Positions 31,876-61,671 of a stretch of DNA of 64,000 bases are shown one piece after another. The stretch's first letter is position 1; each line of letters opens with the position of its first letter. The position numbers and the translations under genes are program-made. This DNA comes from Polychytrium aggregatum (taxonomy: Eukaryota; Chytridiomycota; Chytridiomycetes; Polychytriales): the NCBI RefSeq assembly GCF_025602895.1, contig NW_026516210.1:1032119-1096118 (forward strand), in the 5' to 3' direction. The notes under the pieces are model-generated. The model had not been told where the DNA came from, made no database searches, and saw nothing but the letters and a program-made list of their open reading frames with translations.

Positions 31876-33060
31876 GGCAACACCGTTCAGCGCAGGCAGT
31901 TGCTGGGATGATCTGGCGAGTCTGGGGAGCCAATGCACGTCGCTGGGCGAGCGGGAGGTTGGGTCAGCGGACAAGCTCGGGAGGCATGTCGGGGGGTATC
32001 CTGGCTGGGCTGGACTCTTGGGAACTGGGCTGCTGTCGCACGGCCCGCAGCTCAGTGGAACGACATGACAAGAGGTGAAACCAAGGGGGAGAACGCTTCC
32101 ATTTTTGTGGGTCGTGCGAGTCTGGTGGAGCAATCGCATTCGCGATGACCAAGCTGGTGCTTTGTTGTCGTGTGGCGTCGGTTTCTGGCTGCTGGGTTAC
32201 GTCCATTCCTTCAAACGGGCCCCGGCTTTGGGTGCGACGGTGTGGGCCGGGTGCTGCGGCCGATGGGGGAATGGAGACGGTTCCGCCGCGACACTGGTGC
32301 AATACCCAGCGGATTGACGGAGCGATGGAGCTGCTGGGGAACCAAGGCATCTTGCCGTCTCCATGGGGCTCGCAGAGTAGTTGCGCTGTGAGTGCGGTTG
32401 ATATCCACGAGTGTGGATCATATTCTCAGCGGGGCTCAGCGGGGCTCAGCTGGGACTGTGTCTGATGGACTGTGTACTTCTCAAGCCAAGTCAGTCAATC
32501 CAGAAAGAAACGGGGCAGTCACTTCCTGGCATCAGATGTCTAACACCTGCCAAGCTTCCATACGCTCCAGTGGGCAAGTCGTGTGATTGTTTCCTGTCCT
32601 GGTTGGCAATCTCTTGGTGTGGTGCATCCACTGGCCCTTCTGGAATGCTCCGTGGTGTATCGATATCAAGATACTCGGCCTTCTCGAGTCGCTTGCGGGG
32701 AGCCATCTGAGCGAGAAACCGCCCTTGATTCAGATCCAGAAACACATCAATGAACGGCCATACCCAGCGTGCGATGTGTTGAGTGAGAACATTCACCAAC
32801 GGCCAAATTCCGAGGTGTTCCATTTTTTATTGCACTAGCACTATGAAACATCACCCTGGCCACAGTATTGGGTCCAAATAATAGATGAGGCCGACCGAGG
32901 GTGCTATACCACGGTGTGACGTACATACTGAGAAGAGGATGGAGAAAGCAGAGAGTGAGGTGGAGGAAGGCTGAGAAATGGAGGAGAGCACGCCAAGAGT
33001 TGCAAGCAGCAACGTCTGAGTTCAACTGGTCTCGCGATCGGATCGATTTTGAATCCAGGA
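31876..33060. other. Intergenic region between the TKL kinase and GTPase A
   Basis: About 1.2 kb: kinase promoter on one side, 3' region of GTPase A on the other. It contains two adjacent copies of GCGGGGCTCA near 32428-32450 and a 50-bp sequence (32492-32541) repeated near 48762. No gene recognised. Confidence 0.5.
32492..32541 (+). repeat. Dispersed repeat, copy 1 (matches 48762-48811)
   Basis: A 50-bp stretch beginning CAGTCAATCCAGAAAGAAAC that matches 43 of 50 positions, without gaps, to the stretch at 48762-48811 on the same strand. The two copies lie outside GTPase A and between GTPases D and E. Confidence 0.8.
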
Positions 33061-36000
33061 TCACAGTTTCTTGAACTTTTGGATAAACTTTTTGAATCCT
33101 CTGTCCTCCTTGATTCTCGGGGTTTGAGGGACGACAGAGAACTGGTCCGCGTCGCCATAAGTTGGCGCGCCGACATGATAGGTAGAGGGATCAGGACTGG
33201 GTGCGCGGCCGAAGGTTGGCGAGGAAGAACGGGTGATGGATGGGGGACGGGTCGATGCTTGATCGAAGGGCCGGGAATATTGCTGGGGGGGTGCTTGCCA
33301 GTCTGGATAGTGCTGCTGCTCAGGCTGAAGTGGACCCGCATATTCATATCCTTGTGGACCCCTCTGATGATCCTGCTGAGGGTGCCACGGCTGATTCCCG
33401 CGTATGTCTGGGGATTGTGGTGGATACGACTGTGGTGGATACGACTGTGGTGGATACGACTGTGGTGGATGCGGCTGTGATGGATACGGTTGGTGTTGCT
33501 GACCCTGCGGCTGGGCATATTGCTCTGGATAGCGCCGGTACTGTCGAGTGTCTTGCTGCCATTGGGGGTCTGGATATTGCGATCGGTACGGCTGTGGTTC
33601 CGGTGGATATCGCGGTGGATACTGCTGCTGCTCCAACGGTCGATCGTACATAGGTTGATATTGCTGGGAGTTTTGCCTCCAGTCAGGAGACTCATATGGC
33701 CGGTGTTCATGTTGCCTGGGATCTTGCGGCCTATATGGGTCAAAGCCGTTTGGCCGGGGATATTGCGGCCTATATGGCTCGTGGTAATACTGTCGTGGCC
33801 CTTGGCTATAGACCGAGGAAGGCCCCCCGTAGCGTGGCGGCTGGCCCTGTGGCTCACGCGGCCGGTGATACTGTGCCTGAGGAGGCTGGGCGCTATAAGC
33901 ACCACTGTCTTGCGGATCATCATAGTTGCGGAACGGATTGCGATGAGGGGAGTGTTCTCGCATCCGTTGATTGGAGCGAGGCGCAGTTGGTCTCATGTAA
34001 TATTCAGATGAGACATATTGCGCAGAGACATCTTCATGATGATTTCCGGCATAATGAATGGGAGGCAGGCTGGGGCTCGGCATCATGCCTGGTGCGGTGC
34101 GGAACTTTGCTGGGGATGGGAGGTTGAAGCTCTGGAAGAACCTGCCATTGTGTTTGAGGTTGACGAGCTCGTCCATCAGAACCAAGATGTCTTGAGGCGT
34201 GGGGACCGCAAAACTCTGTCTCGAGATGCCTTCGGTGAGCAGCTTCTTTTCACTCTCGTACACAAGCTTGAGCTTTTCGAGGCTGTCGATTCGGGTTTGC
34301 TGGATGGCCCCGGCCCCGGGGATCTTGGCTCCAGCATCTCTTGCGTCCTTGATCAGGTGATCAATGTAGTCCAGCAGGGCATCGTTGTAGAGGACAATGC
34401 CGTTCTCCTTGACAAACACTGCAAACCGGGCGCTGATCGACATGATCTTCTTCTCCTCGTCCTCGAGTTCCCGGACGGTGCTGCGGAGGGCACTGAGCGT
34501 CATTTGCATTTTCCTGCCATTGTCCTGTTCAGATGCGATTTGCTGCTGATAGCTCTGGTTGATAACCTGGACTGACTGTTCCTCCAGCTTGTAGGTGATA
34601 TGCATGTGGATTGTAAACTCATGATGACATTTTATGCACACGTTGTTTTCCATGGCCGCACACTGGGCGAGCTGTGGATCACCAACGGCCTTGACCTTGA
34701 TTTGGGTCAGATAGCAATGGGCATGACATTCTGTGACATAGTTTGGCATAGCAATGCCATCTTCACCTTGGACATATTCGACGCAATCTTCGTGAGTGCA
34801 TACAGTCATTGGATACGGGAGCTCCTTTCTGTGTGGAACCTTTTTGGTAATGGTCAAAGCTTTCTGCAGATCGGTGATACTCTGCTGGTTTGAATCCAGA
34901 GCAGTGATTTGATCGTTGATGGCCTTCTTGTTTGCGCTGATCATTGCGGCGACTTCGGCCAGGGGCTTGCACAGCTCCAGGACGACTTGGCGGACCTCGT
35001 AGAGAATCACGGTTTTGTCGGTGGACTGGCACGGGATGCCGGCGATGGTGTTCAGCATGTTGCGGCAGGTTTTCGAGGAGCGCATCCAGGAGGAGCGAAA
35101 GTCGTCGACCTCTTCTTGTGTGAATCTGACCTTTCCACGAGCGAGCAGGAAACGGTAGGCCTCATTGTCGACCATGAAGACGTTCGTGTTGGTGATTGGA
35201 ATGCTGACTCTCGAGTCGCGCTTGATCTCGTCGAGAAGGCTCTTGAGGGCCGGCATCGTGTCGCCTGGGCGGTAGAGGGTGCTTCTGGCGTTGGTGAACA
35301 TGAACATAAGGTTGTTGACGCAGTCCTTGTGCAAGCTCTTGAGGAGCTCCTTGATGCAGAAGCGGAACCAGGTGGTGAGGCGGCTGTTGTTGGGTTTCAT
35401 AAGCATCAGGATGCCGTTGATGGCAGGGTAGTTTGCGAGGTAGTTGATGATGAGGTCCATGTTCTTCTTGTCTTGCTCAACGCCACGGGTGTCACCCATT
35501 CCAGGCGTGTCGATGAGCTTCACCTGCACCGGCTCTCCATTGATGAGACGGGCATAGAAGACATAGGTGCGCGGGTGTTGGGTCGAGGACTGGCCGGTGG
35601 TGTGTTCTTCGTTGGTTGTGGCGCTCCCTGTTGGTAGCATATTGCAGCAGCGTGAGCAGGCGATGCAGATGTCGTGTCACGCAGAGCCTGCGAAGCAGAA
35701 CCCAGCCCTGGTGCGCCACGACTACTTACGTCCACCGCCAGTGGCGGCTGAGTTCAGCGCTAGTCTCTGGGACTTGATTTCGATGGGCTTGCTCAGCTCT
35801 CCGGGCTCGTACAGGAAGAAGCTGGTCGGAATCAGCGTCAGCGCATCATCGGGTCCGATGGTGAACAAGTCTTCATATATGAGATAGTTTGCAAGCGCAT
35901 TGATCAGCGTGGATTTTCCGACACCGGTTTCTCCGAGAATCAAGATGGTCAAGGTGCGCCTCACGCTCCCAAAGTTGGCCTGAGACTGCTTGGGGTTGGA

Positions 36001-36090
36001 GACGAAGCTTTCGTCGGCTTGGCTGGAGGCCATGCCCGACGTAGGGGCGGCCGGCTTTGGCGCCGGCGACTGGAACGAAGTCCAACCCAT
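33061..36090 (-). CDS. GTPase A: AIG1-like P-loop GTPase, short form
   Basis: Two exons on the - strand, 36090-35730 and 35627-33061; 2928 nt, 975 aa. Seen: G1 GETGVGKST (residues 53-61), G3 DTPGMGDTRG (160-169), a region corresponding to G4 that reads FMFTNARST instead of [NT]KxD, and MVDNEAYRFLL after it. A Cys/His-rich module follows (MTVCTHEDC, ECHAHCYL, CIKCHHEF..HMHI), fit to bind zinc, then coiled coils. The last 350 residues are Pro/Tyr/Gln-rich and prion-like, including four SYPPQ units. The protein ends with the basic-aromatic tail GFKKFIQKFKKL. The phase-1 intron lies between G1 and G3, as in its four paralogues. Best family label is AIG1/TRAFAC-like P-loop GTPase; guanine specificity is unproven because the G4 motif is non-standard. 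It is divergently paired with GTPase B. Confidence 0.85.
33419..33478. repeat. 15-bp tandem repeat encoding SYPPQ units in GTPase A
   Basis: Four copies of a 15-bp unit (GGATACGACTGTGGT on the + strand), in frame with GTPase A on the - strand, giving repeated Ser-Tyr-Pro-Pro-Gln in the low-complexity region. Length can change without frameshift. Confidence 0.88.
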
Positions 36091-36682
36091 TTTTGCGCTG
36101 GAGGAGCAGGAGCTGGCGAGGGAGCTCAACAAATATATACTGTGAGCACGGCGGATTGGCGCTGACACGGTGAGCATTTCCTTTCTGAGGGGCGACGGGC
36201 ACACTCGGGCGCGGGGCCGCAGGAGGCTTGTGTTTCGGGTCCGACATGGGGGGGTATCCAGCTGTGCAGGCCACCCGAAACAAGTGCCTCGATTCGGAAT
36301 CGCGGTGGTGCAGTTTGCCGTGTTTGGCAGGTCGTGCGACCCGGATGCCACATGACCCGCGCTGTGGCGTCCGTGTGCAACCTGCGCCACAGCGCGGCCT
36401 TGCTCCTTTGGTTTCGGATTTTGAAACCAAGGTGTCTGACAGGCGCATGGGGCCTGGCGGCAGTCGCACACCGACAGTGCCTCCGTCCTCTGCCTGAAAC
36501 AGAGGCGTGTTTCGTGGAACTCGTCGTTTCAGAGTGTCGCGTCGCCAGCCACATCGGGCAACTCCACGCTCCGAGGAGCTCCATGGCGGGGCGGCCCACA
36601 GCCCGACAGGCACCTATATATTGATCTCTGTAGATACCGATCGCAATTTCTCCTCGCCTCTTCACTCACCTCCATCCCCAAC
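36091..36682. promoter_or_regulatory. Shared divergent promoter of GTPases A and B
   Basis: 592 bp between the two start codons. TATA-like elements face both ways: TATATATT at 36615-36622 (61 bp before the B start) and, on the - strand, GTATATATTT at 36131-36140 (about 41 bp before the A start). A 13-bp perfect inverted repeat, CCGCGCTGTGGCG at 36357-36369 and its complement at 36385-36397, lies midway and could bind a dimeric regulator. Confidence 0.65.
36357..36397. promoter_or_regulatory. 13-bp perfect inverted repeat in the A/B divergent promoter
   Basis: Arms CCGCGCTGTGGCG and CGCCACAGCGCGG separated by 15 bp. It sits centrally between the two divergent starts. Candidate operator or cruciform; function not shown. 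Confidence 0.6.
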
Positions 36683-39600
36683 ATGGCTTCCGGTGCTGCG
36701 GCAGAGTCCGTGGTGCTTGTCATCACTGACTGCCCGAACGAGCAACTGAATGCCTTTTACGATCACTTCTATGCTCTGCCTGGGATACAGCGCGAACGTG
36801 GTAATGCTATGGCTCCCTTCCGTCTGCGAACATATTGTCCTTTTCCAGCACTCGAGGCTAACCGATTTCCTTGGCGACTGACGACCAGACCGCCTGGGTG
36901 TCGAATACATTGGTGTGCGCCAAGAATATGCACCCAATCCGAGTTACATTGCCACGGCTATCCAAGACATCATAAGAAAGCCGAGAATCAGACTCAAAGG
37001 AATAGCTTTGGTTGCTCATGCGCCCTTTGATGCCTTCGCTCGATACTGGATCACTGAAGTGTTGGCATGTCTCCCGAAAGTGAATCCCCCGACTGTCATG
37101 CTCTTTGCATTCGGCAACCCTGTACTCGATGCTGGAGGACAAGGTCCATCGCCGCTGCTCTTGGATAGTCCTCCCACCAAGGGGTTCTACTTTCGTCCAG
37201 TTGACGCTCGCGACAGAAAATATGAACAGTGGTTCCAACTGATCACAGACCAAGGCTCGAGTGCCGGCTTCAACAGCGGACAGCCACAGACACGAGCCTA
37301 TCATACCGGTGACCAAATCTTCGCAGAGAACGAACCGACCCAAGATCTGCAATCAATTGAATACATTGTCAGCAACCGAGTCGAGCACTACTACAACTGC
37401 GAGCAACTTTTCTGGGAACCTCAGGCGAGCCAGAGCTCAATCTCTCCATTTCATTCATCCGTCGAGCGCCTGTCCGACGATCTGGCCAAATGCAGTTTGA
37501 TTGCTTTCAACAACAACGCCAGTGCCTTCTTCGCCGGTATGGTGCAATATTATCGTGACATCGATACTCACGATCGGTCTGCGGCCAGCCACCAGCAACT
37601 TCAATGGGTCATGGCTCAAATCAAAATACAAGCATTCGTTAGAGATCAACTTCAACTTGCTATTGACAGACAAACCCACCAATGGGGCAGTTCGAGCTAT
37701 CCCGTGCCTCAAACGAGCACCCCATTAAATGGGTCTGGTGACAGATTGCCGAATTCTTTTCTTGACAATCCAGCTTCGTCAGGACCTGGGAGCTCGATCG
37801 AAAAAGATTTGATGGGGCCTGTGCAAGACGTATTCGAGCGTTGGAGTTCACCGCACGGCGATCTTTCCAGTGGTCCTGCCCGACACGCATCCGATGTGCC
37901 CTACAGAAGTGACCCCCAAGTCAGTCGTGGCGGGAATTCTTTGAGCCCTGCTTCCAACTTTGGAGCAGATGGTTTCAAGGAAACCCCAAGGCCTCAAGAG
38001 ATTCTCAAGTGGTGGAGATCGGACGACAGCCTGTACCAAGGGCTAGAGGCCAGCGGTGTCAGCCCGGTCGGCGGCGTGTGGAATAGCAGCGACGTCAACA
38101 TCCTGGTCATGGGCGAGACCGGAGTCGGCAAATCAACCCTCATCAATGCTCTGGCCAACTACATCACCTTCCCCTCACTCCGAGACGCCTGCAAAGCCAA
38201 CGAACCCGTAACCCTCATCCCGGCGAGCTACGTGCTCTGCGATCCCGTCACCTACCAGGAAACAACCATCAAAACCAAGAACATTTCGGTTCCGCTTGCA
38301 AGCAAGGGTTTGTTTGCACTACCACACATGCGCATATTGGCTTGAGATTGGTATGGAGGTCCGACCGCCTGAAACTGACCATATCTAAACTCGGGTGCAA
38401 TCAGATATGCAGGCCAGACTTCAACGGAATGAGTACCAGGTTCCTGGCCAATCCACAACGCAGGACCCGCAAGCCTACGCATTCCAAGTGCCAAGCCAGA
38501 GCGGCGCCTTGTCCACGATCCGGGTCATCGACACTCCCGGCATGGGTGACAGTCGCGGAATCGAGACAGACAAGCAGAACATGAGCAACATCGTCAAGTA
38601 TGTCTCCAAGGTCGGCATGATCCACAGCGTCGTGATTGCCCTGCCGACGAACCAGAGCAAGCTCACTGTCTGGTTCCGCTTCTGCATCATGGAGCTGTTC
38701 AAGTACCTGGACCGTGACGTTATCCAGAACATCGTGTTCCTCTTCACCAAGGCCAGAACGACCTCTTTCCGTGCGGGCGACACGATTCCAGTCCTCAACG
38801 AACTGTTCCGCGAGATCCAGAGCCAGACTGGAATCAGCATCCCTTTGACCGACAAAAACACCTTCCTCATCGACAACGAAGCCTATCGCTATCTCCTTGC
38901 GAAAGATACGATTATATATGATTTGGAGGACATCAAAAAGTTCAACGAGTCGTGGAACCGCTCCGCCTCCGAGTGTCGACGGCTCATCTCCCTGGCCCAG
39001 GGACAGCCTCCTCAAGACTTTAGTAAAACAGCCCAGCTCGAGGTTGTTCGTGATTTCCTCAACACACAAGTGGATCCCATCCTTAATTACGACGATCAGA
39101 TTGTGCGTGCTACTCGAGAGCGCGACCGACTGGCTACCATCATTAATGATATTCATCGTGATATCGACGAATTGAAGAAACTCAAGTCTGTCTATATCAG
39201 TCTCGTTCCTGTTTATCATCGCAATGGCGTCAAAGTCTGCAGCCACCCGGATTGCGTCGAAGTCAAGATAACCAAGACCGGGTACCAGGACCTGCGCCGT
39301 TCCGTTGACAATCGTTCCCGGGGATATCACAACCCACAAGCTCAGCGAACGTGTGTCCACGGCGCAGGATATCAAAAAATGGTCAATGTCACTTACACAA
39401 TCGAGATGCAACAGGGCGAAGAAAGCAGTGAAATTGCAAGCCATATTGCCCAGCTCGAAAGGACGATCGATCAAACTACGCGCGATATTGATAGTCAAAA
39501 TGCTATTGGACGAAGCGTGGAGGATCAGAAAGCCAAGCATCTGAATCTCATTGCTCTGTGCAGTGCCTTCTTGAGGGACAACAGTATCGTCCTTCGAAAC

Positions 39601-40878
39601 GAGACCTTGCTTGATGCCACCGATTTCCAAATCATCAAGCAGGAGGCTTTCAAAAATGGTGTGCCCAACCAGGAAAGACTCCGCAACCTCGAGCGCCTGA
39701 AGCATGACTACGATAATGAGAAGAGACTACTTTCTCAAGCCGGAGCAGCTACCCACCGCGTCCATGACATCAATGAAATCAGGAACCTCATGGAGCAGCT
39801 CGAGGGCCCTCGCGGTCCATTCTTGAGCCGATTCGATAGGGTAGCGGGCGAGAGACTCGGCGATCGTGAAGAGGTGCGACTGCTTCAAAACCCGTCTGCC
39901 CAGCCTGTGGGTACTGTTGGAGCAGCGGCTCATACCGCTGGACACGTTCCAACTGAGTACTATCCAAGTGAGCGATTGGGCCAGCGACTCGAACAGCAGC
40001 CCTCATATCATCATCCCATGCAAAACCAAGGCCTCGTTGGACAAGTGGGGGTGACTCAACATGGTTCGTATCGACCGTCTTCTACCCCAAGTTTGGATCC
40101 ACACTATCGACCCAGCAACGTTGCAATGTCATACAGTGGTTACAATTCGCAATCAGCAAATCAAGGTTATCCCCGGATGCGTGAAAATGGAAGCTCGGAT
40201 GCCAGTACAGAGATTCAAAACGCCTATAATCCAAGAACATCTTCTCAGTCGCAACCAGCAGCATCGGCCTACCAGCAGCCCCGTCCTGGAACCGGAGGGC
40301 AACCATATCCTGGTGCTTCAGACTACCATGCCAGCGGTTACGCAGGCCCGGTGGCTCCCCAGTCGCAACGTGGCAAAATCGAAAGGGGTCCATCGAATCT
40401 CGAACTTGAGCAATCGCGGTATACGAATACATCGACTCCAGCAAATCCGATGTATGATCCACGAACCCAAACACATCCAAATGCAACCTTCACGAGACAG
40501 CAGTCGTTCAACTCCCACCACCATTATCCATCTCAAACCCAAGAACTCAGTCAGCCTGAACCCAGCCCTGAAATCCCTGCAAAGCAAGAACTGCCTCGGG
40601 ATGATGCAACACAACCAAAGGACGACGGTCAAGCCGATGGTTATGGTTTGGAGAAGAACCCGGCAGCAACGCCCCAGCCTACTGCATCTCGAGAAGATGA
40701 AGGAAAGTCGTCATTTATCAGTAAATTCGGTAAAGTTCCCGCGATGTTCAAACAGAAGCAAAACAAACAGGCCGACCAAACCAAAGGAGGAGGCTCAAAG
40801 GTCTCAGGATCACCCAAGGGCCCAGCTCCAGGCTCAGGACAAAACCTTACACCTCAGCAGCCAAAGAAATCCAAGTAG
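36683..40878 (+). CDS. GTPase B: AIG1-like P-loop GTPase, long form with N-terminal domain
   Basis: Three exons: 36683-36800, 36889-38307, 38405-40878; 4011 nt, 1336 aa, phases close. Residues 1-250 form an alpha/beta-looking domain starting VVLVITDCPNEQ that also occurs in GTPase C (ILVITDLAGEQ) but in no other gene here. A Ser/Pro-rich linker follows. G1 GETGVGKST is at about 447-455, G3 DTPGMGDSRG at about 555, the G4 position reads FLFTKARTT, followed by LIDNEAYRYLLAK. The Cys/His module is degraded: only the first pair (VCSHPDC) and a stray CVHG remain. Coiled coils and a long Gln/Ser/Pro/Tyr-rich region follow, then a basic end with FISKFGKVPAMFKQKQ. The intron between G1 and G3 is phase 1. 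It shares a promoter with GTPase A. No function can be assigned from sequence alone. Confidence 0.85.
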
Positions 40879-41438
40879 CGACCGCCAAGGGCACTTTCGT
40901 CGCGAAGCGAGCTCGCTTCTCTCATATGTCTTTACCTCTTCCAAGAAATGCACACCGGCGCGCCACATGTGTCCTCGCAGCCCAGCTCGTCCTCATATAT
41001 GTTTCCGAAACGGTGCCGCCAATACATGATGTGATATTGATACTGGTTTGTCGCTGCGAGTGGTGTTGGCGTCTCCGCAAGTCACAACTTAGAACCAGAG
41101 CGGTGTGTGTGATAATGGCTACATGGATCCTTCGGCACGCAGCGACCTGGACCAAGTCGGCCAAGGGAGTCCGAGCCCAGGCGAAATGATCGAGCGCGAC
41201 TTTGGGGTGCATCTTGTATTTCTAGATCAGGTCGCACCATGGCTGATTGTCCCCACGGATGCGCAATTGAAAATGAAACAGACCAAAGCAAGTGCTCGTG
41301 ATGGGGCTGATCGAAATGAGAAGCGCTTGGATACGATCCGACGAGTTTATTCAGTGGCAAGCAGAATACGAATCCAACAGCTGAGACCCAACGTGGTTAA
41401 TCCGGGGACAACAAAACAACAGGTCTGTGCGAGCAATC
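40879..41438. other. Intergenic region between convergent GTPases B and C (centre of the mirror-image cluster)
   Basis: 560 bp between the 3' ends of the two long-form GTPases. This is where an inverted duplication would have its axis. I did not find a long palindrome, so the axis has decayed or was never symmetrical. No gene seen. Confidence 0.5.
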
Positions 41439-44400
41439 TCAATCACTTGGGACAGTCTGCGAGATGCTACTATCAGAGACATAGACAACTTGCTCCTGGA
41501 GCTTCGGAATAGATGCAACTTGATCAATGGTGGAAGCAATATCATCGTTGACTTGAGGCGCATTGTGGGTTTCTGCTCCGTGACACTCTTCAGAAGCAAT
41601 ACTGTCGCGATGGGTTGGTGCATTATTGGCGTAGGTTGCACCTGTTTGCTGGGCTGAATCCTCAGTCACTTTCGCCTGCTCAGCTGCGTCTTTCACTTGA
41701 ACTTGCGGGGGAGTTGGTGTCTCGGCCGAGGATGGATTCGTGGTCGGGGCAGCTATCTGAGAGGCGGCGGTTTTGGAGCTGCAATCATTATCATGAGGCG
41801 TTTGGACTTGAGAGGCATTCGTTGCATCGGCGGTCTGCATGGGATCATGGCTCTCGGAGATTGCATCGGACTCTTCATCTTGATGGTGGTTCGTTGGCGA
41901 CGCAGTTGAATCGGATTGGGTTGGAACCTTAACGAATTTCGTTCCTTGGGCCGGAGTGATCGGCTGTGGTTCCGGATTGCTATCAGATTTGCTCACACGA
42001 GGTTCGAAATCGTTTGAGTCGGTGGGATTGCTATCAGATACGGTCGATTCATCCGGGGCAGGACATGCGATGGTTTCTTGTTGGCTGTCAGGGGTGGGGC
42101 CGGCATCTTCAGCCGCGCCAGGTTGCGTTGCATCGCTTGTATTGACAGGGAGAGCTTCTTTAGAAGCGTCGTCAACTTTAATGCCATCGTCTGCAATGTT
42201 TTGTGGTGTCTGAGCGGCTGTCGATTTGGAGAAAACATCGACCTTCGATCCGGCTTCCGACGGTTGTATTTTATGAGGCAAAGTATTGATAGCATCGTCG
42301 TGGAGATCTCCGCTCTCATTGACAGGGGCTGTGGCTGGCTTAGATTTAGGAGTCGGCTTGGCCTCCCAGTCAAACTCTGCCATTTCCTTCTGGAAATCTT
42401 GGACGGCTTTGTCAAGGTCTAGCTCTGTTTCTCCACTGCTGGCTTTGAGCAGTCCAAGCACTTCGTCCAGAGTCTGCGGATTGGCTTGATGCTCCGGCGA
42501 CTGCGACAGGTACTGCTGTTCCCTCTTGTAGGCATCGCGGACGGACTCGAGCTTCTTTTGCTTTGCGAGATTGACCACGCCGTTCTCGACGGCCTGCTGC
42601 TGGATCACCTGGAAGTCGTCGACGTCCAGGAAGGTCTCGTTTCTGACCACGACGCTGTGCTGGTGCAGGCATTGATTGCTCAGCGCAAGCAGCTGGAGCG
42701 ACTGTGATCGGTGCGTTCGAATCTGCTCGATTTGAGTTTTGAGAGCCGCGATTGCGCTGCGGTGTTGGTCGATGAATGTCTGCTGGACGCTGATGGCAGA
42801 CTGAATGTTTTCGCTCAGGGTGTCTTCTTCGACAACGTGGGTGCGCCACTTGATATACTTCTTCTCCAGAAAGTTCTTTCCATGCGAGCATGGAGTCGGC
42901 TTTGTGTTCAAAGTACGAGTCTTCGATGCAGGCGGCGAGGCTGGATGAGCCTCCGGTTTGATCACATACTGTCCGCTTGGGAGCACCCTAAAGTCCGTGC
43001 AGTCGATGTGGTTGCAAACCAAGGTGCCCTCGGGATAAAACTCTGCCGTCATTTCGAGCCGTCCGTTGTTCTGTCTTTTCAGATAACTGATTGTGTGCTC
43101 AACGGCACGAATGCCATCCTCGTGCTCCTTGATCTGCTTGTTCAGCGACTCTTCGGTGCCCTCGGAGGCGACCAGGCTCTGGATTTCCCTGTCAATGTAC
43201 GTCCTCAGGGCCTCGAGCTGGGCAGTCACCCTGAAGTCCTTTGGGCTTCGTCCCCGGGCGACCCTGACCATTTTGCGGCATGCGATCGAGGATCTGTGCC
43301 ACGAATCGTCAAACTGGAGAACCTCGCCTTCAGAGAACTCGACCTTGTCCTTGGCGAGGAGATAGCGATATGCCTCGTTGTCGATGATGAAGCTGTTGGT
43401 GTCGTCCAGGTGGATGTCCACGCCTGACTGGGACTTGATCTGGTCAAACAGCTGTCTCATGTTTGGAATGGTGTCGCCCACTCGGAAGGCTGTCGACCGG
43501 GCCTTGGTGAACAAGAACGCAATGTTCTCCACGGTGCCACGGTCCAGGTACTTGAACAGCTCCATGATGCAGAATCTGAACCAGACCGTGAGTCGGCTCT
43601 GGTTTGTGGGCAGCGCAATGACTAGCATATGGATCTTGCCGACGCGGGTGACGCATCGGATGATGTTTTGCATGTTGAGTCTGTCAGTCTCGACGCCTCG
43701 CGAGTCGCCCATGCCTGGGGTGTCGATGATCCTGATTTTGGTTGGCAGGTTGTCTTCGTCGTATACACTGAACACGTACGACTGGGGATGCTGCGTTGTC
43801 GACTGTCCTTGCTTGTAGACTTCGTTGGCGTGCGCGGCTGGGCGAGGAACAAATGGCGGATCAGCACCATCGACGACTGCACAGAGTTATGGAGGTGCGG
43901 CACACTCACCGTGAGCAGGCACCTTCAAGGATTTATCGTCGGTCTTGATCTCGGTCGGCTTGCATGTTTCGGGGTCGTAGAGAACAAACTTTGTTGGCAC
44001 GAGGGCCACAATCTCAGAGGAGGCACAGGCTTCTTCCAGAGATTTGAAACTGACGTAGTTGGCGACGGCGTTGATGAGGGTCGACTTGCCGACACCGGTC
44101 TCTCCCATGACCAGGATATTGACATCCTGGCCGTTCCAGGGCAGGTTCAGAAAGTCAGAGTCGTCGAATTGCTGATGGACAGCGGGTTTCTTGGCCTGGG
44201 ACTTTGATGAGTCTACAATTGGATGAGGTTGCTTATCTGGGTGACTCAGAGCAATTAGTTGACTTAGCTATGGCACGGAGGCGGGGACGAGCATTCTACA
44301 CTGCCTGCAATCGAGTCCAGTTGCACACCTGTTGTGATGTTAAGCTGATTCTGGTGGTGTTTTGGTTGATCACCCACGACTACGGAGCCGGAAAATGTAT

Positions 44401-45675
44401 CTTGGGCAGTCGAGCTGTCGAGGCGAAATGAGCGCGAGTCAGAGGGGGCTGGTGAGGCAGAGAGCAGCACAAGGATTGCTGACTATAGTATTGATCAATA
44501 CCGGCCCACGGACCTTTCGGGTACATCACCGGGTTGCTCGTTGATGAAACTGCTAGGTGGGGCACCTTGGAGTGATTCTTGATCATCCAGAGACGACGCA
44601 ATGCCCTCGAGGATACTGGCTACTTCCTCAGGTGTTGCGGTGGCATGGCTCGAAACAGATGGAAGCGACAAATCTGAGTATACAGTTCTCTCTGTCTCGA
44701 GTCGAAACTTGAGCTGGGGTAACTCTTGGTCTGAATAGCCTGCAGTGGGTGTTCGTGATCCCAGGAGGGTTTCCATGTACGAGACAGACGCAGAGTTCAG
44801 GATGGTTGCGTCTCTGATGTGGTTCTTCAATATCTCAAGATGGGCTTTGAGGTTGGACGCCCCTGTTTCTTGTCCCTGCTCGTGCGATGAATCAAGGATG
44901 GCGAGCTGGCCCTGCCCTTTGGAGAGGATCCGACGCACGTATATGAAGTAATGGATGTCTTGGAACGCTATGTGGGTGTCGGCAGCCAGATAGGCGGCAA
45001 GGGTGGTGACACTCTGCTTCGGATTCCTCGACAAGGTTCCTGTGCCGGCGCTGGGCACAGCAATGCGGAAGAAGTGCATGTTTTGCTTCGAAGAGTCCTC
45101 TAAAGACTCAACTTGGATCACGGGCACGGTGCGTGCCGCCCGAGCGAATTCGATCATTCGTTCTGCAGGTTTTTTCATGGTCCAGCGGTCTTTGCTAACG
45201 ACTGCGAAGAGCAGGCTATCGACTCGGTTTCTTGGCCAGCACAGCAGCAGCTGGGAGACCCAGTAGTCTGTGAAGGGAGATGGCGATTGTTGGATTACAA
45301 CCACGACCTTTCGGAAGCTGCTCTCTTTGGGAATGCGCCGGAGCTGCTCTTGAATGGGATGAATGGACTGGAGTCGAGGTGGCTCTTGCATAGCGAACAT
45401 CTCGAAGTTGACTGCCTTGGTCTCTGAGGCGTCGGTGCGATCTTTGGACTTGGAAAAGAACCCAGCTGATTCTGTTTCCGGGCAACGAGAGTGTGAGTGC
45501 GGAAGAAGAGCAGATGGGATGGCTCGGGCACTCAAGAGCGAGAACCATGACATGTGTGCTTACTCTTCTGCGGAGCGGGATGGAGGAGATCGCTGAGGAT
45601 TCGAACGACCTTGTCGCTCTGCTCGCCAGCCAGGTCTGTGATGACCAGGATGCGATCGCTCTGGGGGGCTGTCAT
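41439..45675 (-). CDS. GTPase C: AIG1-like P-loop GTPase, long form with N-terminal domain
   Basis: Four exons on the - strand: 45675-45564, 45471-44530, 44212-43910, 43837-41439; 3756 nt, 1251 aa, phases close. The donor at 44530 is chosen by phase and is the weakest junction. The N-terminal domain begins ILVITDLAGEQ and shares hydrophobic strands and a TDYWVSQLLLCWP block with GTPase B. G1 GETGVGKST at about residue 387, G3 DTPGMGDSRG, G4 position FLFTKARST, then IIDNEAYRYLLAK. The Cys/His module is degraded (VCNHIDC and CSHG remain). Coiled coils follow, then a roughly 270-residue acidic, Ser/Thr/Pro-rich tail without the basic-aromatic ending seen in A and D. It is divergent from GTPase D. 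Confidence 0.82.
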
Positions 45676-46518
45676 GTTTGCAAGCGCTTGGGAGTGTGGG
45701 AGCAAGTAACCTGCTAGCCGAACGACTTGCGGTTGTCTCTGATATACCAAGACAGGATGCGCCGTGCGGATCGGTGATGCGGCTGCCCTCCTCCTCCGCC
45801 CGCCCGCCAGCAAGTGCCTCCCGAAAGGGTATCCCCAACACCAAAAATGGCCGTGCGCACCCCGTCGCAGGCCAATCGCATCGCCCGGGACATCGGCAGC
45901 CTGTGGCGCCGGTGTGCTGAAACGCCGTGCGACGAGATGCCAAAAGGCCGTCGATCGGTGCGACCCTGGTCCAGACACAGCCCTGGCTCGGCCGTGTCCC
46001 AGCGGGCTGTGCTGTAGCGCCAGGCTGCGCGGCCGTCGCACTGCAGCCTCCGCCCGGGGCACACAGCGTCGGCATCAATCCTGAAACACAAGCGGGCCCC
46101 ACCCTGTGTGCCCATCGGCCCCGCACCCCCACGGACGGCGCATCGGGCCCACGCGCACATGAAACATGTGGCATCGTGCGACGTGGTACGCGAGGACGGC
46201 GTCGATTGGTGCGGCTTTGGTCTCAGATTCGATCACCCTTCGTGGGCCAGGGTGCCACAGGAGAACACAAGGATCGTCTGGCAGGGGCACCCAGCCAAGC
46301 GCAATGCCGGGTCGGCCAGTCTCAGCCCCGCCGTCGTGCCACAGAGCGCATGGTGTTCCCGCATCGTCCAGATTTGGTTTCGTTCGCGGCAAGGCGTGCG
46401 AGCCCAGCATCTGCCGGTCCTCCGTCAGCTTAGGGATTCTAAAATCGGGTGCCTCGACCCTGCCCCAAGAGCGCACTGCAGACACGCACGGTACTTGCCT
46501 TCAAACTCCAACGGCATC
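45676..46518. promoter_or_regulatory. Shared divergent promoter of GTPases C and D
   Basis: 843 bp, GC-rich, between two start codons. A TATA-like ATATACC (45741-45747) lies about 66 bp before the C start; no clear TATA is seen for D. CTGTGGCGCCGGTGTGC (45901-45917) matches 15 of 17 positions of a segment in the A/B promoter (36362-36378). CATGTGGCATC (46165-46175) also occurs there in opposite orientation (36344-36354). Confidence 0.5.
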
Positions 46519-48660
46519 ATGGTTGCTGCCAATATGCCGACGGTGGAGGTCATCGAGCACCATGTTATCAGCCCGTATCCGAGCCAACCGTATTCCGGCC
46601 CCAGGCGGGAGATTGTGCTCTTGATCCTCGGCGAGACAGGAGTCGGAAAATCGACCTTCATCAACGCCCTGCCCAACTACTTGCTGTTCAATAGCATCGA
46701 CGAGATCCGAGAGGACCGGATCATCAACCTCATCCCCACAAGTTTTTACGTTTTCGAGCCTGGGGCTCTGACCGACGGAAAGCTGATCGAGTCGGGACAA
46801 CTCTCGTTCCGATCCAACGCTGGTAAGTCATCCGGTCCAGCAATGGTGACGAATGCAATGTTGTGTGCATCGACTCGGTGGTGCGTGCAGCCGGTTATGT
46901 GAACGTGCCTATCCCCTGAGCCAGCAGTCCACTTTGACTCAGATTCCGCATGGAAGAACGAAGTCCGGGGCCAGGGCCAGTCATCGACTCAGTCCCCACA
47001 CACCTACGTGCTCGACACCGAGCTCAGCAACGGAGAGCCTGTGACGGTCAAGTTCATCGACACTCCTGGCATGGGCGACACCCGAGGCGTCGAGCAGGAC
47101 AAGAAAAACATGGACAACATCATCCAGTACATTGCCAACTACGAGAAAATCCACGGCATCCTCATTCTCCTGAAGCCCAACCAGAGCCGCCTGACAACGT
47201 TCTTCCGATTCTGTGTCATGGAGCTGCTGCGGAGCTTGCACCGCGAGTGCGTCAAGAACATGGTCTTCCTCTTCACCAACGCCCAGAGCACCAACTTCCG
47301 CCCTGGAGACACGATGGACTCTCTCCTGCCGCTCATTGAACAGATTTCGAAAGATTCCAGAGTCTCCATCTTCCTCCGGAACGAAAACATGTTTATGATC
47401 GACAATGAAGCCTATCGGTACCTGCTGGCGAAAAACAAGGTCAAATTCGAGGAAGAGGAAGAGAGAAAGTTCCTCATCTCATGGGAAATGTCCTCCAGCG
47501 CCTGTCGCAAGCTTCTCGACGTGGTTTCAAGTCTCACGCCTCATGAAACCCAACAGACCACCACCCTGTATCTGGTTCGAGACAAAGTCCTCGAGCTTTG
47601 CAAGCCTCTGGGCGACGTTGCCGCCATGATCGTGACAAATCAGAGCAACATTGAAAACAAAATCATGACCTTGCAGACTGCAGCCAATTCCGTGAAAGAT
47701 CTCGACAAGATTTTGAACATCAAGGTGAACACCCCCGTCAAGCGCGAGATCGATCGCCCCACGACCGTGTGCACCAACCCAGGCTGCGTCCGATATATTC
47801 AAGATGAGTTTGGGAATAACTTGACCCATTACATCACCCGATGCCACAAGCCATGCTATCTAAAGAGGGTTCCCGTTCAAACGATCGGCGACCCTCAACT
47901 CGCGCTCTGCGCGCAAATGCAAAACGATCACTGTGTCCGCTGCACCCATAGCTTTCGAGAGCACATGCACATCAAATGGGAGCTCGTGTTTCAAAAAAAG
48001 TCCGTCATCGACCCCAATATCAAGGATCAAATCGCTCAACAAAAGGACCGCCAGTCAAAGGTCCAGGCAACCATCAAGGAGCTGAAGAGTTATCAGAAGC
48101 AGCTGGTGAAAGAGCAGAAGCGTATCATGAAAATCAGCGCCAAATTCTCTGCGTTTGTCAAGAATAACGGCATCGTTCTCTACAACGATGCCATGCTGGA
48201 CTATCTCGACCATCTGATCAAAGACGCTCGAGAATCCTTCGGTGGTGATGTCGGAGCCCGAGAGGAGAAGATCAAAGGGCTGGAAGAGCTCAAGGCTATC
48301 TATGTCACTGAGCGAAAGGTGCTCTCAGAAGGCATTCGGATGAAGATGTTTTTCGCTCCAAGTGTGAACGACATCAAAAAGCTGATGGATGAGCTCGTGA
48401 ACATGGAGTTCTCGGGCCAGTTCTTCAAGAGCTTTGACCTGCCCACGGACTACACCGAGGAGAATGGAATAGGCTCACAAGAGCGCACCGTCAAACCACA
48501 GCCACTGAACGACGGTTCGTTGGTTGGTGCTGCTGGCACTGCCCAGGCGCAGCTGCCCACCCCGGCAATAAGACCTCCGGCGCCATACACCCCTATTTAC
48601 GATAAACCCAGGGTCGGTGTCAAAGAATTCTTCTCCAAGTTCAAGTTTTCACGCTCCTAG
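46519..48660 (+). CDS. GTPase D: AIG1-like P-loop GTPase, short form
   Basis: Two exons, 46519-46822 and 46943-48660; 2022 nt, 673 aa. G1 GETGVGKST at residues 38-46, G3 DTPGMGDTRG, G4 position FLFTNAQST, then MIDNEAYRYLLAK. The Cys/His module is complete: TVCTNPGC, RCHKPCYL, CVRCTHSFREHMHI. A coiled-coil region (about 380-560) follows, then a short linker and the basic-aromatic end KEFFSKFKFSRS. It lacks the long low-complexity region of GTPase A, so it is the most compact full version of the family here. One Asn-Ala is replaced by Asn-Pro in the helix after G1 (INALPNY). The phase-1 intron separates G1 from G3. Confidence 0.88.
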
Positions 48661-49499
48661 ACAGAGCCTCGTACTCTTCGGCTCTCCCAAGTTCCTTCTC
48701 TCACGGCTTGGCGTCTCATAAACACACCAGCGGGTGCTGATATCTATTCCAGCCACAAATACAGTCGGTCCAGAAAGAAACGGGACAGTTCCTTCCTGGC
48801 TTCAGATCTCTGAACTCGGGTGATGAGACGCTCATCTGCCGCTCCGGGCGGATGACGGACCCTGGTCGGGCGCTTTCGATGTCCGTGAGTAGTATTCCGA
48901 CCCTTGATGCCTCCCAACACTGTCAGTCGCACCGAGACTCGCTTGGTGGCGGACTGCCGCGGTTTCACCCCAGGCTCGACCCAACGCTGTGCTTTGTCAG
49001 GCCGCTGTGCGATCCCATGCCATCCGGATCTCGAAGCAGCGCTCGATATGATGTCTGGCCAATCGGAGGAGGTCAAGTCGACTCCTTGTGTTTCATCTTT
49101 GACCCATTCCCGGCGGTGTGGCTCGGTCACAGCGACGTCTGGGGTGCACATGTTTCAGATACGGTGGCACATGTCGTCGCAGTCGCTGGCGGGAGCTCAT
49201 GCTGTGGGACCTCTCGGGACCCGGGCTGACACTTTCCGAGTCCCATGGCCAGTCAAGGTGCGAGCGCCGCGACAGAAGCAAGACTCGATCACTAGTCCTC
49301 GCAAGAAGCGGCAACAAGATAGATGGCATGGCCAAGCAAGTCACACAGCGACCCACATTTGGGAGTTTGCAGCGACAAGACAGCCGCCTCACCCGACAGA
49401 AATGGCCATGAGACAGCTGCCCAAAGACTGCCCAGAGGAACCTCGTCGCTCTGGCTACTGTCCGGCATCCTCACCACGAGCTCCGTAGCGTATCCCGGC
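48661..49499. other. Intergenic region between GTPases D and E
   Basis: 840 bp holding the D 3' region, the second copy of a dispersed 50-bp repeat, and presumably the E promoter. Open frames upstream of the E start (from about 49118) are short and unlike known proteins. Confidence 0.5.
48762..48811 (+). repeat. Dispersed repeat, copy 2 (matches 32492-32541)
   Basis: Begins CAGTCGGTCCAGAAAGAAAC, about 100 bp after the stop codon of GTPase D; 43 of 50 positions match the copy beyond GTPase A. Same strand in the window, hence opposite orientation relative to the two short-form GTPase genes. Confidence 0.8.
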
Positions 49500-51488
49500 A
49501 TGGCATCGAAGCGCATCGACGGGTTTCGCTCAGTATTCTCGCCCTCGCCCTCAACCTCGGCGCCGCACCATGCACCCGCCTCCGAACCCGTGATCCTGGT
49601 CTTTGGCGAGACGGGCGTTGGAAAGTCGACGTTCATCAATGCACTGGCAAACTACCTGAGCTTTTCCGACATCGACAGCGTTGATCAAGGCAATATGAAG
49701 ATCATGATCCCGACGCAGTTCTCGCTGCACGACTTTGAGGCCACGGGACACGGGACGATGTTCAAATCAGGCAATCTCACACTCAAGTCGACCCACGGTA
49801 GGCTCGCATAAGATCCTCGGCGATTTGTTGTGTTGAACAAGCAGTCGCAGTCGCATTTTGCCTCGCACTGCCCCTCAGTATTGACTAACCGCCCGGGTCT
49901 CTGGCCAGAATCGACGACCGACAATGAACAGCACATTGTCGGACGATCCTCAACACAAAGCCCCCGCACCTACATCCTGGAGACGCAGCTCGATTCGGGT
50001 CGGCATGTGTCCATCAGAATCATCGACACCCCCGGACTGGGCGACACCCGGGGCTTTGACCAAGACCGACGAAACGTCGAAAACATCATCGGTTATCTCT
50101 CCCACTACGACAACATCAGTGCTGTGTTTCTTCTGCTCAAGTCCGACGTGACCCGGACGACGATTCCGTTCAAGTTTTGTTTCAAGGAGCTGCTCAAGAA
50201 CCTGCACAAGCGCTGTGCAAACAATGTTATGTTCATGCTCACGCATTCACGAAGCTCCTTTTTCCGGAATGGCGACACGATTTCCAGCTTGACTGCGCTG
50301 CTGGAGGAGATCAAGCGGGAGTCCGGGGTCGAGATTCCGATTGCGAATAACGTCTTCATGATCGACAACGAGGCGTTCCGCTTCCTGGTTGCCAAACACA
50401 AGATGGAGTTTTCGGACACTGAGCGAAACCAGTTCCGCTCCTCGTGGGAGAAATCGACCAAGACATCTCGGAAGCTGATCCAAGCCATTGCCGAGATTGA
50501 GCCCTGCGAGACCGAAAGCTCCGTGTTCCTCCTGAGCACTCGGCGCTGCTTCATAAAGCTGTGCAAGTTCTCGGCCCATGTCACCAACCTGGAGGAAGCC
50601 ACAGAGAAGGTGATCAGAGAGCAACGGTCTCTCCTGGAGTCGACCCGGGCCGATATTGCCGAGGCCAAGCGCACCCTGACGACGACCCTCAACATCCCCG
50701 TCAAGTACAAGCTGTCCCACTCGATGACCGTCTGCACCAACAAGAGCTGCACCAAGGTGATGCAGGACCAGAGCGGACAGAGCATCATCGACTATGCCGT
50801 CAAGTGCAATCCTCGCTGCACCCTGGCGGACATACACTTGCAGAGTATAGGAGACCCGAGACTGCGCTTCAGCCCCATCATGGTGCGCGAGCAGTGTCGA
50901 ACGTGCTCGCACTCCTTCCGAGAGCACATGAACATTGACTGGGATGTCCGATATGAATCAAGAGAGATCGCCAGTCCTTCGGCACAGCGACAGCTAGCCA
51001 AGGCGCAGGCGAAAGAGCACGCCATCAGCAAAGCCATCCAGACGCTGGAGGAGTCGCTGCGGGAAATCCAAGCCGCAGACGAGAGCATCAGGAAGGTCGG
51101 CCGTCGACTCGCCAGCTACTTGACGGAGCACAGCATCATCCCCTTCAACACCTCGCTGCTTGAGTATCTCGAGATCCTGAGCAAGGACGCACAAGCCTCG
51201 GGCATGAGCGGCGCCTCTCTTGGCCAATCAAGTGAGAGCTTCAAAGATCTGGAGACCGACAAGTTGATCCACGAGGCCGAGAAGAAGATGGTGCTGGCGG
51301 TTCAAGAGAGGAGCGAGGCCGTGCCCTCGAGGGACGAGATTGAGCGACTGATGGGCGAGCTGTCCAAGATTCGCTACTCCAACACCGAGGGAGTGGCAGG
51401 GCTTTCACGAGCCTTTGGCGCAATATCTGTTTCGGGGAACTCGGGCGGCTCACGAATTCACGCCCTCGCTTTGCCGGCCCGTGGTTAA
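49500..51488 (+). CDS. GTPase E: AIG1-like P-loop GTPase, short form
   Basis: Two exons, 49500-49797 and 49909-51488; 1878 nt, 625 aa. G1 GETGVGKST at residues 36-44, G3 DTPGLGDTRG, G4 position FMLTHSRSS (the least canonical of the five), then MIDNEAFRFLVAK. The Cys/His module has the first and last Cys/His groups (VCTNKSC, KCNPRC, CRTCSHSFREHMNI), with one intermediate Cys of A and D replaced by Ser. Coiled coil follows. The C-terminus ends in a Gly/Ser-rich and hydrophobic stretch without the basic-aromatic tail of A and D. It is unpaired: same strand as D and most likely a tandem copy of a short form. Confidence 0.87.
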
Positions 51489-51729
51489 ATAGGATGGTGG
51501 TTGCTCACATCAGGGTGCGCCAACAAGTGTAGCGATGTTTGAATATAGAGAAAATGGATGATGGAATCAGTCCTGCCTGGATGATGGAATCAGTCCTGCA
51601 TGGATGATGGAATCAATCCTGCCTGGATGATATTCTCATGTTGATCATATGGAACACTCTCTGCGGTGCTGTGGGTACAGCCAGCATCAATCCCGAACTG
51701 CGCTCTTGTATCAAGTTCCAAGGGTGCAA
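51489..51729. other. Spacer between GTPase E and the LINE 3' end
   Basis: Short intergenic stretch containing a 23-bp tandem repeat; no gene. Confidence 0.5.
51555..51632. repeat. 23-bp tandem repeat, three and a half copies
   Basis: Copies of a unit starting TGGATGATGGAATCAGTCCT, with two substitutions, downstream of GTPase E and about 100 bp from the LINE poly(A) end. Confidence 0.9.
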
Positions 51730-51819
51730 TTTTTTTTTGTTTACAATAGTTGTATATTCAGGAATATTCAACAAGCCATCAGTACCATGCGGTACCCGGC
51801 AGTGGGCGTACAAGCAGGC

Positions 51820-53138: not shown

Positions 53139-53719
53139 TGTCATGAACACCCTCTGCCTTTGCCCTCTTCCTTCCTTTACCCTTGCCCTTTCCTTTCTGT
53201 TTGCCTGCCTTAGCGCTTTCCCTTCCTTCTGTTTGTTTGTTTCCCGCGCTGTGCTGCCTTGTTGTCTTATCGCCAGCACGCGCGCTGTCTGTGTTCCGTT
53301 CCCGCTTCCTTGCTGTTGGTCATGGGTTACGCCCACGACGCCGCCTCGACGCCGCCTGACGCCTTGGCGCCGCCATGCCGCCGCCACTGACGCCCGCTGA
53401 CTCACGGATCCCGAGTCACGGCCGCCACCTGCTTCGCTCGCTGCTTCGCCCTCCCCGCCGCTGCTTCGCTCCTGCCCCCTCGCTCTGCAGCGTCGATCCT
53501 TGGCGCTCGCATAAATAGTCCTCCGACCAGCCTCTGTCCTTTGCCTTCGTCTTGCCACTTTGTATTTTTAGTATCCTAAGCCTTGGATCTAGAATAAAAC
53601 TTTGGCTTTACACTTGACACTCTGTGTCCCAGTCCAGTCCCCGCTCCTCTCCCTACGTTCGAGTCTTGTATTAGGACTCTTGCGCACTTCCCTGCTTGCC
53701 CCGTTGTCCAGTCTTGACA
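53139..53719 (+). repeat. Left LTR of element 1
   Basis: 581 bp, TGTCA...TGACA ends. It contains a TATA-like ATAAATA at 53511-53517 and AATAAA near 53595. Transcription is expected to begin near 53549. Confidence 0.94.
53549..53557 (+). promoter_or_regulatory. Predicted transcript 5' end / self-primer of element 1
   Basis: GTCTTGCCA, 32 bp after the TATA-like box, is exactly complementary to the 9 bases at 53722-53730 just after the LTR. This placement is what a Tf1-type self-primer needs. Confidence 0.6.
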
Positions 53720-53721
53720 CT

Positions 53722-53730
53722 TGGCAAGAC
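53722..53730 (+). other. Primer-binding site of element 1 (self-priming type)
   Basis: TGGCAAGAC starts 2 bp after the LTR end and pairs with GTCTTGCCA at the predicted transcript 5' end. Confidence 0.6.
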
Positions 53731-53791
53731 CTTCAACAACCCCCCACTTGCCCTGCCTTTGCCCCCGTTCCCTTCGCTATCTCTTTTACCA

Positions 53792-55030
53792 ATGGCTTCC
53801 CCTTCTGGCCTTTCCGAGCCCGAGCTCCAGGCCATCCGTGCGGTCATTATCCAGTCCGCCGAGAACGCCCGTTCTCTCCAGGACTTTTCCAAGTTCCTCC
53901 ACGATCAGGATGATGCGCTCAACCGCATCACCGATCGTATGGACCAGGTCCTGGCTCGCCGTGAAGAGGATGTCCGCCAAGTTGTCGCCGCCAGTGTCCA
54001 GGAGGCCCTCCGCAGCTACCAGGCCCAGCTACCTCCTCCTGCTCCCGCTCCCGCCCCGATCCGTCGCGCAGGTCGCCCCTACTTCGGCGTACCTGACGAC
54101 GTCGATGATCCTGCCCAAGACCCCGAGGATCACTCTGCTGGTCGCAACTCTGCCACCAGGCAGATAGGTCCTCCCGACCGCTTCTCTGGTAAGGACCCGA
54201 GCCGCTGCAATGCCTTCCTCTCGCATTGCAGACTGGCCTTCGTGTCCAACCCTCCCCTCTTCCAGACTGAAAGGGATAAGGTGTTTTACGCCTTATCCTA
54301 TCTCGATGGTACTGCTGCAGACTACATGCAGCCGTACATCGATCAGTTGGAGAGAGACCCCGAGTGCTCCCCCCCTGCCATCCGTGACTTTGCCGGTTTC
54401 TCCGAGTGGCTCCGTGCTGCCTTTGGCCAGGTTCAGCCCACCATCGCCGCTGCTCGCGAGATGGTCAGGCTTTACCAAGTCACCTCCGCCGCCGCCTATG
54501 CCGCCGAGTACCGCCGCCAAGCCGTCCACCTCGTCACTTGGTCCCAAGACCCTCTCATGTTCCACTTCGAGAGTGGACTCAAGCCCTCGGTCCAAGACGA
54601 ACTCTCCCGCCGCTCCTTCGACAACCTCGAAGATCTCATGCAAGCGGCGATCGCCATCGACAACCGCCAGGAGGACCAACGCTCCCGCCGTCCCAACCAC
54701 CGCTCCGCTCCTGCTCCTGCTCCTGCTCGTCCGGCTCCTCTCCCTTTCCGTCCGGCTCCTCGTCCCTTCGCTCCTGCTCCTCCTCCTCGCCCCGCTCAAG
54801 CCTTCAACGTTCCGCAGCCCATGGACCTCAGCCAGGCTTCCGCTCGCAGGCTGACCGCCGAGGACAAGGCCGCCCTCCGTGCTGCCAACCGCTGCTTTTA
54901 TTGCAAGCAGGAAGGGCACATTGCCCTTCGCTGCCCCAATAAGACCTCCTCCCGCTTGGCTGCCATCGATGCTTCTTTGGCTGCTGTTGAGGTGAATAAA
55001 CTTGACGACCAGGAAAACTTCTCTGCCTAG
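53792..55030 (+). CDS. Gag of element 1
   Basis: 412 aa from the first ATG (MASPSGLSEPEL). It has a coiled N-terminus, a Pro/Ala-rich linker, a capsid-like core (RFSGKDPSRCNAFLSHC to LKPSVQDEL), a second Pro/Ala-rich stretch, and one canonical CCHC zinc knuckle (CFYCKQEGHIALRC) near the end. It forms the particle that packages the element's RNA. It terminates with TAG at 55028-55030, where the Pol frame (-1) is already open from 55006. Confidence 0.9.
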   Translation: MASPSGLSEPELQAIRAVIIQSAENARSLQDFSKFLHDQDDALNRITDRMDQVLARREEDVRQVVAASVQEALRSYQAQLPPPAPAPAPIRRAGRPYFGVPDDVDDPAQDPEDHSAGRNSATRQIGPPDRFSGKDPSRCNAFLSHCRLAFVSNPPLFQTERDKVFYALSYLDGTAADYMQPYIDQLERDPECSPPAIRDFAGFSEWLRAAFGQVQPTIAAAREMVRLYQVTSAAAYAAEYRRQAVHLVTWSQDPLMFHFESGLKPSVQDELSRRSFDNLEDLMQAAIAIDNRQEDQRSRRPNHRSAPAPAPARPAPLPFRPAPRPFAPAPPPRPAQAFNVPQPMDLSQASARRLTAEDKAALRAANRCFYCKQEGHIALRCPNKTSSRLAAIDASLAAVEVNKLDDQENFSA

Positions 55031-59492: not shown

Positions 59493-59497
59493 GCTGG
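59493..59497. repeat. Target-site duplication GCTGG, right copy
   Basis: Matches 53134-53138. Confidence 0.9.
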
Positions 59498-61602: not shown

Positions 61603-61614
61603 ATTTTGAACGCT
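61603..61614 (+). other. Primer-binding site of element 2 (self-priming type)
   Basis: ATTTTGAACGCT begins 2 bp after the LTR end and is perfectly complementary over 12 bases to AGCGTTCAAAAT at 61393-61404, about 35-40 bp downstream of the TATA box. Confidence 0.7.
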
Positions 61615-61671
61615 CCCTCTTGGCTTCCCGGCCTTTCTTCTTCTTTCGCCTCTCTTTCCCTCGTCGATCCG

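Follow-up and report, generated by a model that had tools for sequence, protein, structure and literature searches.

How did five paralogous GTPase genes come to lie side by side in a mirror-image order, and do the proteins that they encode act in pairs? The genes occupy positions 33061-51488 of a 64,000-nucleotide stretch of the genome of the chytrid Polychytrium aggregatum (contig NW_026516210.1, positions 1,032,119 to 1,096,118 of the forward strand; hereafter the window), in the order A(-) B(+) C(-) D(+) E(+). We read them as an old pair of divergently transcribed genes, one of short (S) and one of long (L) type, which is present in two copies and joined by one extra gene. The S and L proteins would form hetero-oligomers at membranes, likeliest as a recognition or defence switch, and we give this reading as a whole a probability of about one half.

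Short and long GTPase genes form head-to-head pairs

L loci were sought by whole-genome searches of the assembly (64.7 Mb, 418 contigs) using D and the long protein of contig C224, followed by reading of the loci. Many loci are present twice in this assembly, which we read as two haplotypes. When these were collapsed, eight L loci were obtained: B, C, and those on contigs C201, C224, C90, C38, C10 and C417. The copies on C130, C78, C346, C13, C398, C406 and C364 were left uncounted as second or third copies, and C99 was treated as a copy of C402. Some rows of the whole-genome searches have no gene model, and gene counts are lower bounds.

The L gene was observed to stand head-to-head with an S gene in seven of the eight loci (A/B, C/D, C201, C224, C90, C38 and C10). 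The recognised first exons of the pairs are spaced about 0.5-1.1 kb apart, the L start being undefined in C90, C38 and C10, and the L proteins of different pairs are about 33-61% identical. Partner distances were found to correlate over six pairs (Mantel r=0.85; 2/720 permutations, the observed one included), with C201 excluded as a near copy and C417 as having no partner, and the L and S trees of the six pairs share two of their three splits. By its gene order, the divergent short/long pair which the earlier note had proposed is a genuine genome-wide unit, one apparently copied as a unit, which hints at joint action of the two proteins. The case for the pair as a unit is strengthened accordingly; the immune role raised along with it stays conjectural.

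The two types are sister GTPases

The GTPases A, D and E resemble Toc34, GIMAP and septins, and each has a long coiled coil and a Cys/His tip (DUF8206, PF26633). Such DUF8206 GTPases occur in fungi, arthropods, tardigrades, rotifers and others. Precomputed PF26633 matches follow the G domain on the NCBI models of D (P0001), A (P0007) and E' (P0017), the last being the copy of E on C201. The G domain belongs to the Toc34/GIMAP/septin fold class, with Toc34, septins and GIMAP among the nearest folds, and the best Pfam matches are MMR_HSR1, AIG1 and Septin. For AIG1 (PF04548; cut-off 27 bits), B (28.9), C (33.4) and D (27.7) score above the cut-off, and A (26.3) and E (19.3) below it. Pfam gave no NB-ARC or NACHT match above cut-off in the paired proteins, NACHT appearing solely below cut-off at the P-loop of A; models of defence families matched only weakly, and all NCBIfam matches were far under their cut-offs. 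D has 1100 homologues at E<=0.001. Among the 120 of these that were listed, P0014 is labelled as a protein of a cyanobacterial metagenome-assembled genome and is possibly a eukaryotic contamination. No confirmed relative was obtained from a scan of contigs for bacterial relatives (594 pattern stretches) or from a scan of viral contigs (600 stretches).

In a tree including 16 outside proteins, L and S form separate clades, with supports of 1.00 and 0.978. PF26633 is not listed on the L models P0121, P0122 and P0123, though the region aligns to S proteins; these models carry PF01926 and PF04548 (P0122 further ones too). Residues were compared in 7 L, 14 S and up to 16 outside proteins, and the S residues were found to be the majority residues of the outside proteins. 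The L proteins have lost the tip residues Cys437 and His447. At D residue 184, in the loop after the switch-II region, all seven L proteins have Pro and 13 of the 14 S proteins Lys. A weak profile alignment matches this loop to one in the septin Cdc10, and from septin, GIMAP and Toc34 structures we take the loop of our proteins to lie at the G-dimer face. Judged by these sequences, L is a derived, diverged sister of the DUF8206 GTPases and not an annotated member of the family. The change from Lys to Pro in the loop and the tip losses in L, taken with the near-constant pairing, point to S-L hetero-oligomers in which L is the modified partner.

The C-terminal tails of 24 proteins (16 S, 8 L) were examined. 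A hydrophobic C-terminal segment is present in two S tails (C90_S2 and C144+), and a basic amphipathic end in A and C402_S, where a fraction of 0.00 and 0.05 of 300 shuffles, respectively, was equally good. The basic-aromatic ends of D and D', its copy on C201, do not rise above shuffles, and neither a hydrophobic nor a basic amphipathic end was seen in any of the eight L tails. Membrane association is thus plausible for a part of the GTPase family only. At C144:16341-17722 (locus L043) two S-type genes stand head-to-head, of which the coiled-coil part alone was found; one of them has a hydrophobic end.

The N-terminal domain of the L type was recognised in B, C, C' (the C201 copy), C224_L and C90_L and not in C38_L, C10_L or C417_L. 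Between C224 and C90 this domain matches at E 6e-47; the better matches of B/C to C224/C90 have 21-31% identity (E 2e-4 to 0.03). A search for relatives with C224_L returned the query alone among 4404 candidates at E<=10; it also missed the domain of B in the same species, and thus says little about distant relatives. An unrooted concatenated tree separates the four independent domain-bearing pairs from C38 and C10 with 100/100 support. When rooted, the domain-bearing L proteins have a support of 0.837, and the L tree leaves the fork open. It is therefore likely that the domain was gained once, and the L/S pairing may be older than the domain.

Gene models of the locus

All five gene models have GT-AG introns and no internal stops, and by exon lengths a phase-1 intron follows the P-loop exon in each of them, which indicates a shared ancestor; the description of the locus as five paralogous P-loop GTPases in this order is thereby borne out. 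Gene A (33061..36090, minus strand; exons 36090-35730 and 35627-33061) encodes an S-type protein of 975 aa, with a G domain above the Pfam cut-off for MMR_HSR1, a DUF8206-like coiled coil, a long Pro/Gln/Tyr-rich tail and a basic amphipathic terminus. The earlier note had called A, D and E short forms, which is correct for the missing N-terminal domain; A is short solely in this respect, as its tail is long. The A/B intergenic region (36091..36682, 592 bp) has one TATA-like hexamer near either end. Gene B (36683..40878, plus strand) encodes an L-type protein of 1336 aa, made up of the N-terminal domain (36683-36800 and 36889 to about 37670), a linker, the G domain, a coiled coil with an incomplete Cys/His set and a low-complexity tail.

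Gene C (41439..45675, minus strand; 1261 aa) is also of L type, and the extra N-terminal domain ascribed to B and C is present in both models. In C it comprises 45675-45564 and 45423 to about 44606, followed by an uncertain linker, the G-domain exon 44262-43910, a coiled coil and a Ser/Thr-rich tail. Several splice choices for the linker intron (about 44263-44501) keep the frame, and in the NCBI annotation C (P0123) is a partial model that starts at the P-loop; the union of the N-terminal and G halves of C in one protein is therefore putative. Across an 843-bp intergenic region (45676..46518), S-type gene D (46519..48660, plus strand; 678 aa) encodes a G domain, a coiled coil with the Cys/His tip and a short basic-aromatic tail. 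Gene E (49500..51488, plus strand; 625 aa), S type on a separate branch, lies in tandem 3' of D.

Contig C130 has the identical gene order, matches at 99.6-100% in those loci that were compared, and terminates inside E; we take it to be the other haplotype of the window locus. On contigs C1, C406, C398 and C130, some family members lie a few hundred bases from the contig end, and these loci are perhaps repeat-rich or subtelomeric.

A probable mosaic copy of C-D-E on another contig

A further C'-D'-E' block on C201 matches window positions 42353..51730 (9.4 kb), mostly at 98-100% and, outside a few sharply bounded islands, at 94-100% per 100-bp bin. The island at 44248-44622 (C linker) is not alignable to C201, that at 45123-45222 (part of the C N-terminal domain) is 78% identical and that at 46723-46822 (D, codons 71-101) 82%. 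The largest is the D island (47329..48543, plus strand, codons 236-640), where DNA identity is mostly 60-73% per 100-bp bin between flanks of 94-100%. Over codons 236-600, which run from the close of the G domain through the coiled coil and its tip, D and D' proteins are 53% identical. Their synonymous divergence (dS) is 0.03-0.16 in codons 1-70, 102-235 and 641-678, 0.83 in codons 71-101 and about 2 in codons 236-600, and such a contrast inside one block is not expected from mutation in a block of one age. Codons 236-600 are under purifying selection, with a ratio of nonsynonymous to synonymous divergence (dN/dS) of about 0.18.

No donor for the D' island was found in the assembly, the nearest sequence being D itself (54%), then C90_S1 (47%); the island thus appears to be an old sister variant and not a copy of another gene found in the assembly. 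Recombination or gene conversion is the probable cause: it would have united an old functional module with a young frame, or else homogenised the frame on both sides of that module. The E' frame is split into two open frames and appears to be broken by a frameshift.

Alternatively, C201 could be a structurally different haplotype of the window locus and the island a balanced allelic polymorphism. Most of the block differs from the window only slightly more than known haplotype copies differ among themselves (98.8-100% identity in 12 same-locus contig comparisons, binned for three under 99%), and a 2.2-kb probe from the C201 flank finds nothing but itself, save for a 267-bp stretch that has two other copies. 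However, the window locus already has a second copy, at 99.6-100%, on C130, and the C201 stretches adjoining the block have no match in the window. We consider this explanation unlikely.

Origin of the mirror arrangement

The earlier note explained the order S-L, L-S by local inverted duplication of one divergent pair, with E as a further copy. Gene order fits this, and within the window the best matches are indeed A-D and B-C. In BLASTP, A and D are 51% identical over 609 aa (A-E 39%, D-E 36%) and B and C 41% over 554 aa, as against 28-33% between L and S; the DNA carries inverted repeats between 35141-35595 and 46975-47429 (A/D, 72%) and between 38513-38906 and 43348-43741 (B/C, 74%). Genome-wide, however, A is closer to C386_S (62%), C224_S (60%) and C90_S1 (59%) over about 500 aa after the intron than to D over the same exon (53%), and the identity of B to C224_L (45.5%) exceeds that to C; these closer relatives all lie at unlinked loci. 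The trees conflict. A, D and D' form no clade in the 14-gene S tree, nor do B and C in the L tree, and the approximately unbiased (AU) test rejects neither joining (p=0.115 and p=0.058, respectively). With six pairs, the S tree joins AB and CD (97/94), the L tree is against this (82/83), and the concatenation unites them at 93/93, unstarred. E is a copy of neither A nor D in particular, and the comparison of the A-B and C-D intergenic regions gave nothing in common beyond 11-17-base chance matches. A block of C-D-E stands by itself on C201, so pairs can move as blocks, and such movement could just as well have brought AB and CD next to each other. We regard a local inverted duplication as possible but rather less likely than not.

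A 50-bp direct repeat flanking A-D was considered as a footprint of duplication and rejected, as it sits in dispersed repeats: one of about 340 bp at 32492-32832, parts of which have scored matches elsewhere at 72-97% identity, and another at about 48760-48823. Gene A is adjoined by a kinase with three Sel1 repeats (29176-32139, minus strand), the kinase region of which has matches at many genome positions, at 66-71% DNA identity. On the other side, frames resembling a long terminal repeat (LTR) retrotransposon were recognised by eye in translation (53696-58911, plus strand; gag with a zinc knuckle, 1230-aa pol), together with a reverse-transcriptase-like frame (59349-61064, minus strand) and a second gag-like frame (61606-63795, plus strand), both near the contig end.

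Comparison with known systems

Paired NLR immune receptors of plants and Sordariales share with our pairs the head-to-head order and two partners that have diverged, of which one bears an additional domain; PMC12258605 gives 13 head-to-head pairs among 225 two-NLR clusters of Sordariales fungi. As in paired NLRs, the head-to-head order has been kept through duplications here, in seven of eight L loci. The window proteins differ in being GTPases, and a defence function for them is hypothetical. Bacterial dynamin pairs (5oxf/5owv; LeoBC) are likewise paired GTPases on long helices, with Foldseek E-values of 1e-6 to 1e-5 and, for LeoBC, PADLOC matches reaching E 4e-9, but full-length superposition on 5oxf/5owv is poor (root-mean-square deviation about 30 A), and the LeoBC match of B is limited to part of the G domain. 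AIG1/GIMAP and Toc34/Toc159 GTPases (paraseptins) differ from ours, which have the long coiled coil, the Cys/His tip and the head-to-head L/S genes.

Function of the pairs

As the best mechanism for these proteins we propose heterotypic pairing of GTPases at membranes. S is the canonical DUF8206 GTPase, its G domain set on a long antiparallel coiled coil with the Cys/His tip, and some members have a membrane-anchor-like tail. L is the diverged sister, without the tip Cys/His and with Pro for Lys at the putative G-dimer face, one sub-group carrying the fast-evolving N-terminal domain. Made together, the two would associate through their G domains as hetero-dimers or hetero-oligomers at an internal membrane, S serving as a nucleotide-driven scaffold or effector and L as a regulatory or sensing partner, and a variable ligand might be bound by the tip of the S coiled coil and by the extra N-terminal domain of L. 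The likeliest use would be a cell-autonomous recognition or defence switch, the main alternative being a membrane-trafficking switch. A possible recognition or immune role is suggested by the analogy to paired NLRs, the expansion of the family and the mosaic. The bolder proposal of a fungal analogue of sensor/helper immune pairs built on septin/GIMAP-like GTPases, its divergent S/L pairs dispersed over the genome, with the S tip and the L N-terminal domain as interchangeable specificity modules in recombination-homogenised frames, we consider quite improbable.

Several observations weigh against our reading as a whole. Positive selection on the D island was not seen. Membrane-anchor-like tails are confined to some S proteins and occur in no L, the N-terminal domains of B/C and C224/C90 resemble each other weakly, and the structure model of this domain is of low confidence, too weak for a fold search. 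For the L gene of C417 no S gene was found in 2.65 kb upstream nor elsewhere on its contig, many S genes in the genome have no L partner, and among 105 random six-leaf trees 7 would, by our own count, match two of three splits. Passive inheritance could also yield the head-to-head order and the correlated distances: an ancestral pair copied by segments would keep its orientation with no functional link, and segmental copying is directly seen in the C-D-E block on C201; the many unpaired S genes likewise favour this view. On the other hand, just one of eight L loci is without a head-to-head S gene, despite the divergence among L proteins and the freedom with which S genes stand unpaired, and we regard a purely passive arrangement as somewhat unlikely. 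The proteins might also be ordinary membrane-trafficking or scaffold GTPases in a lineage expansion, with no part in recognition or defence; Toc34 and septins among the nearest folds, beside GIMAP, and the purifying selection on the D island are consistent with this. It is nevertheless recognition families that more typically show lineage-specific expansion, mosaic exchange and a fast-evolving partner domain, and a trafficking role is a possibility that we entertain without favouring it.

What the S-L pairs offer, on this evidence, is a real and well-supported gene pairing in a barely described GTPase family. DUF8206 proteins are widespread, yet in the literature library searched we found no paper mentioning DUF8206, and saw nothing on the DUF8206 GTPase family or on divergent L/S pairing, in PMC12258605 and PMC12881547 either. 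The conserved pairing gives a concrete hypothesis of hetero-oligomeric GTPases and marks the coiled-coil module as the variable part. If the recognition role is true, these GTPase pairs would widen the range of candidate systems for immunity or allorecognition in early-diverging fungi.

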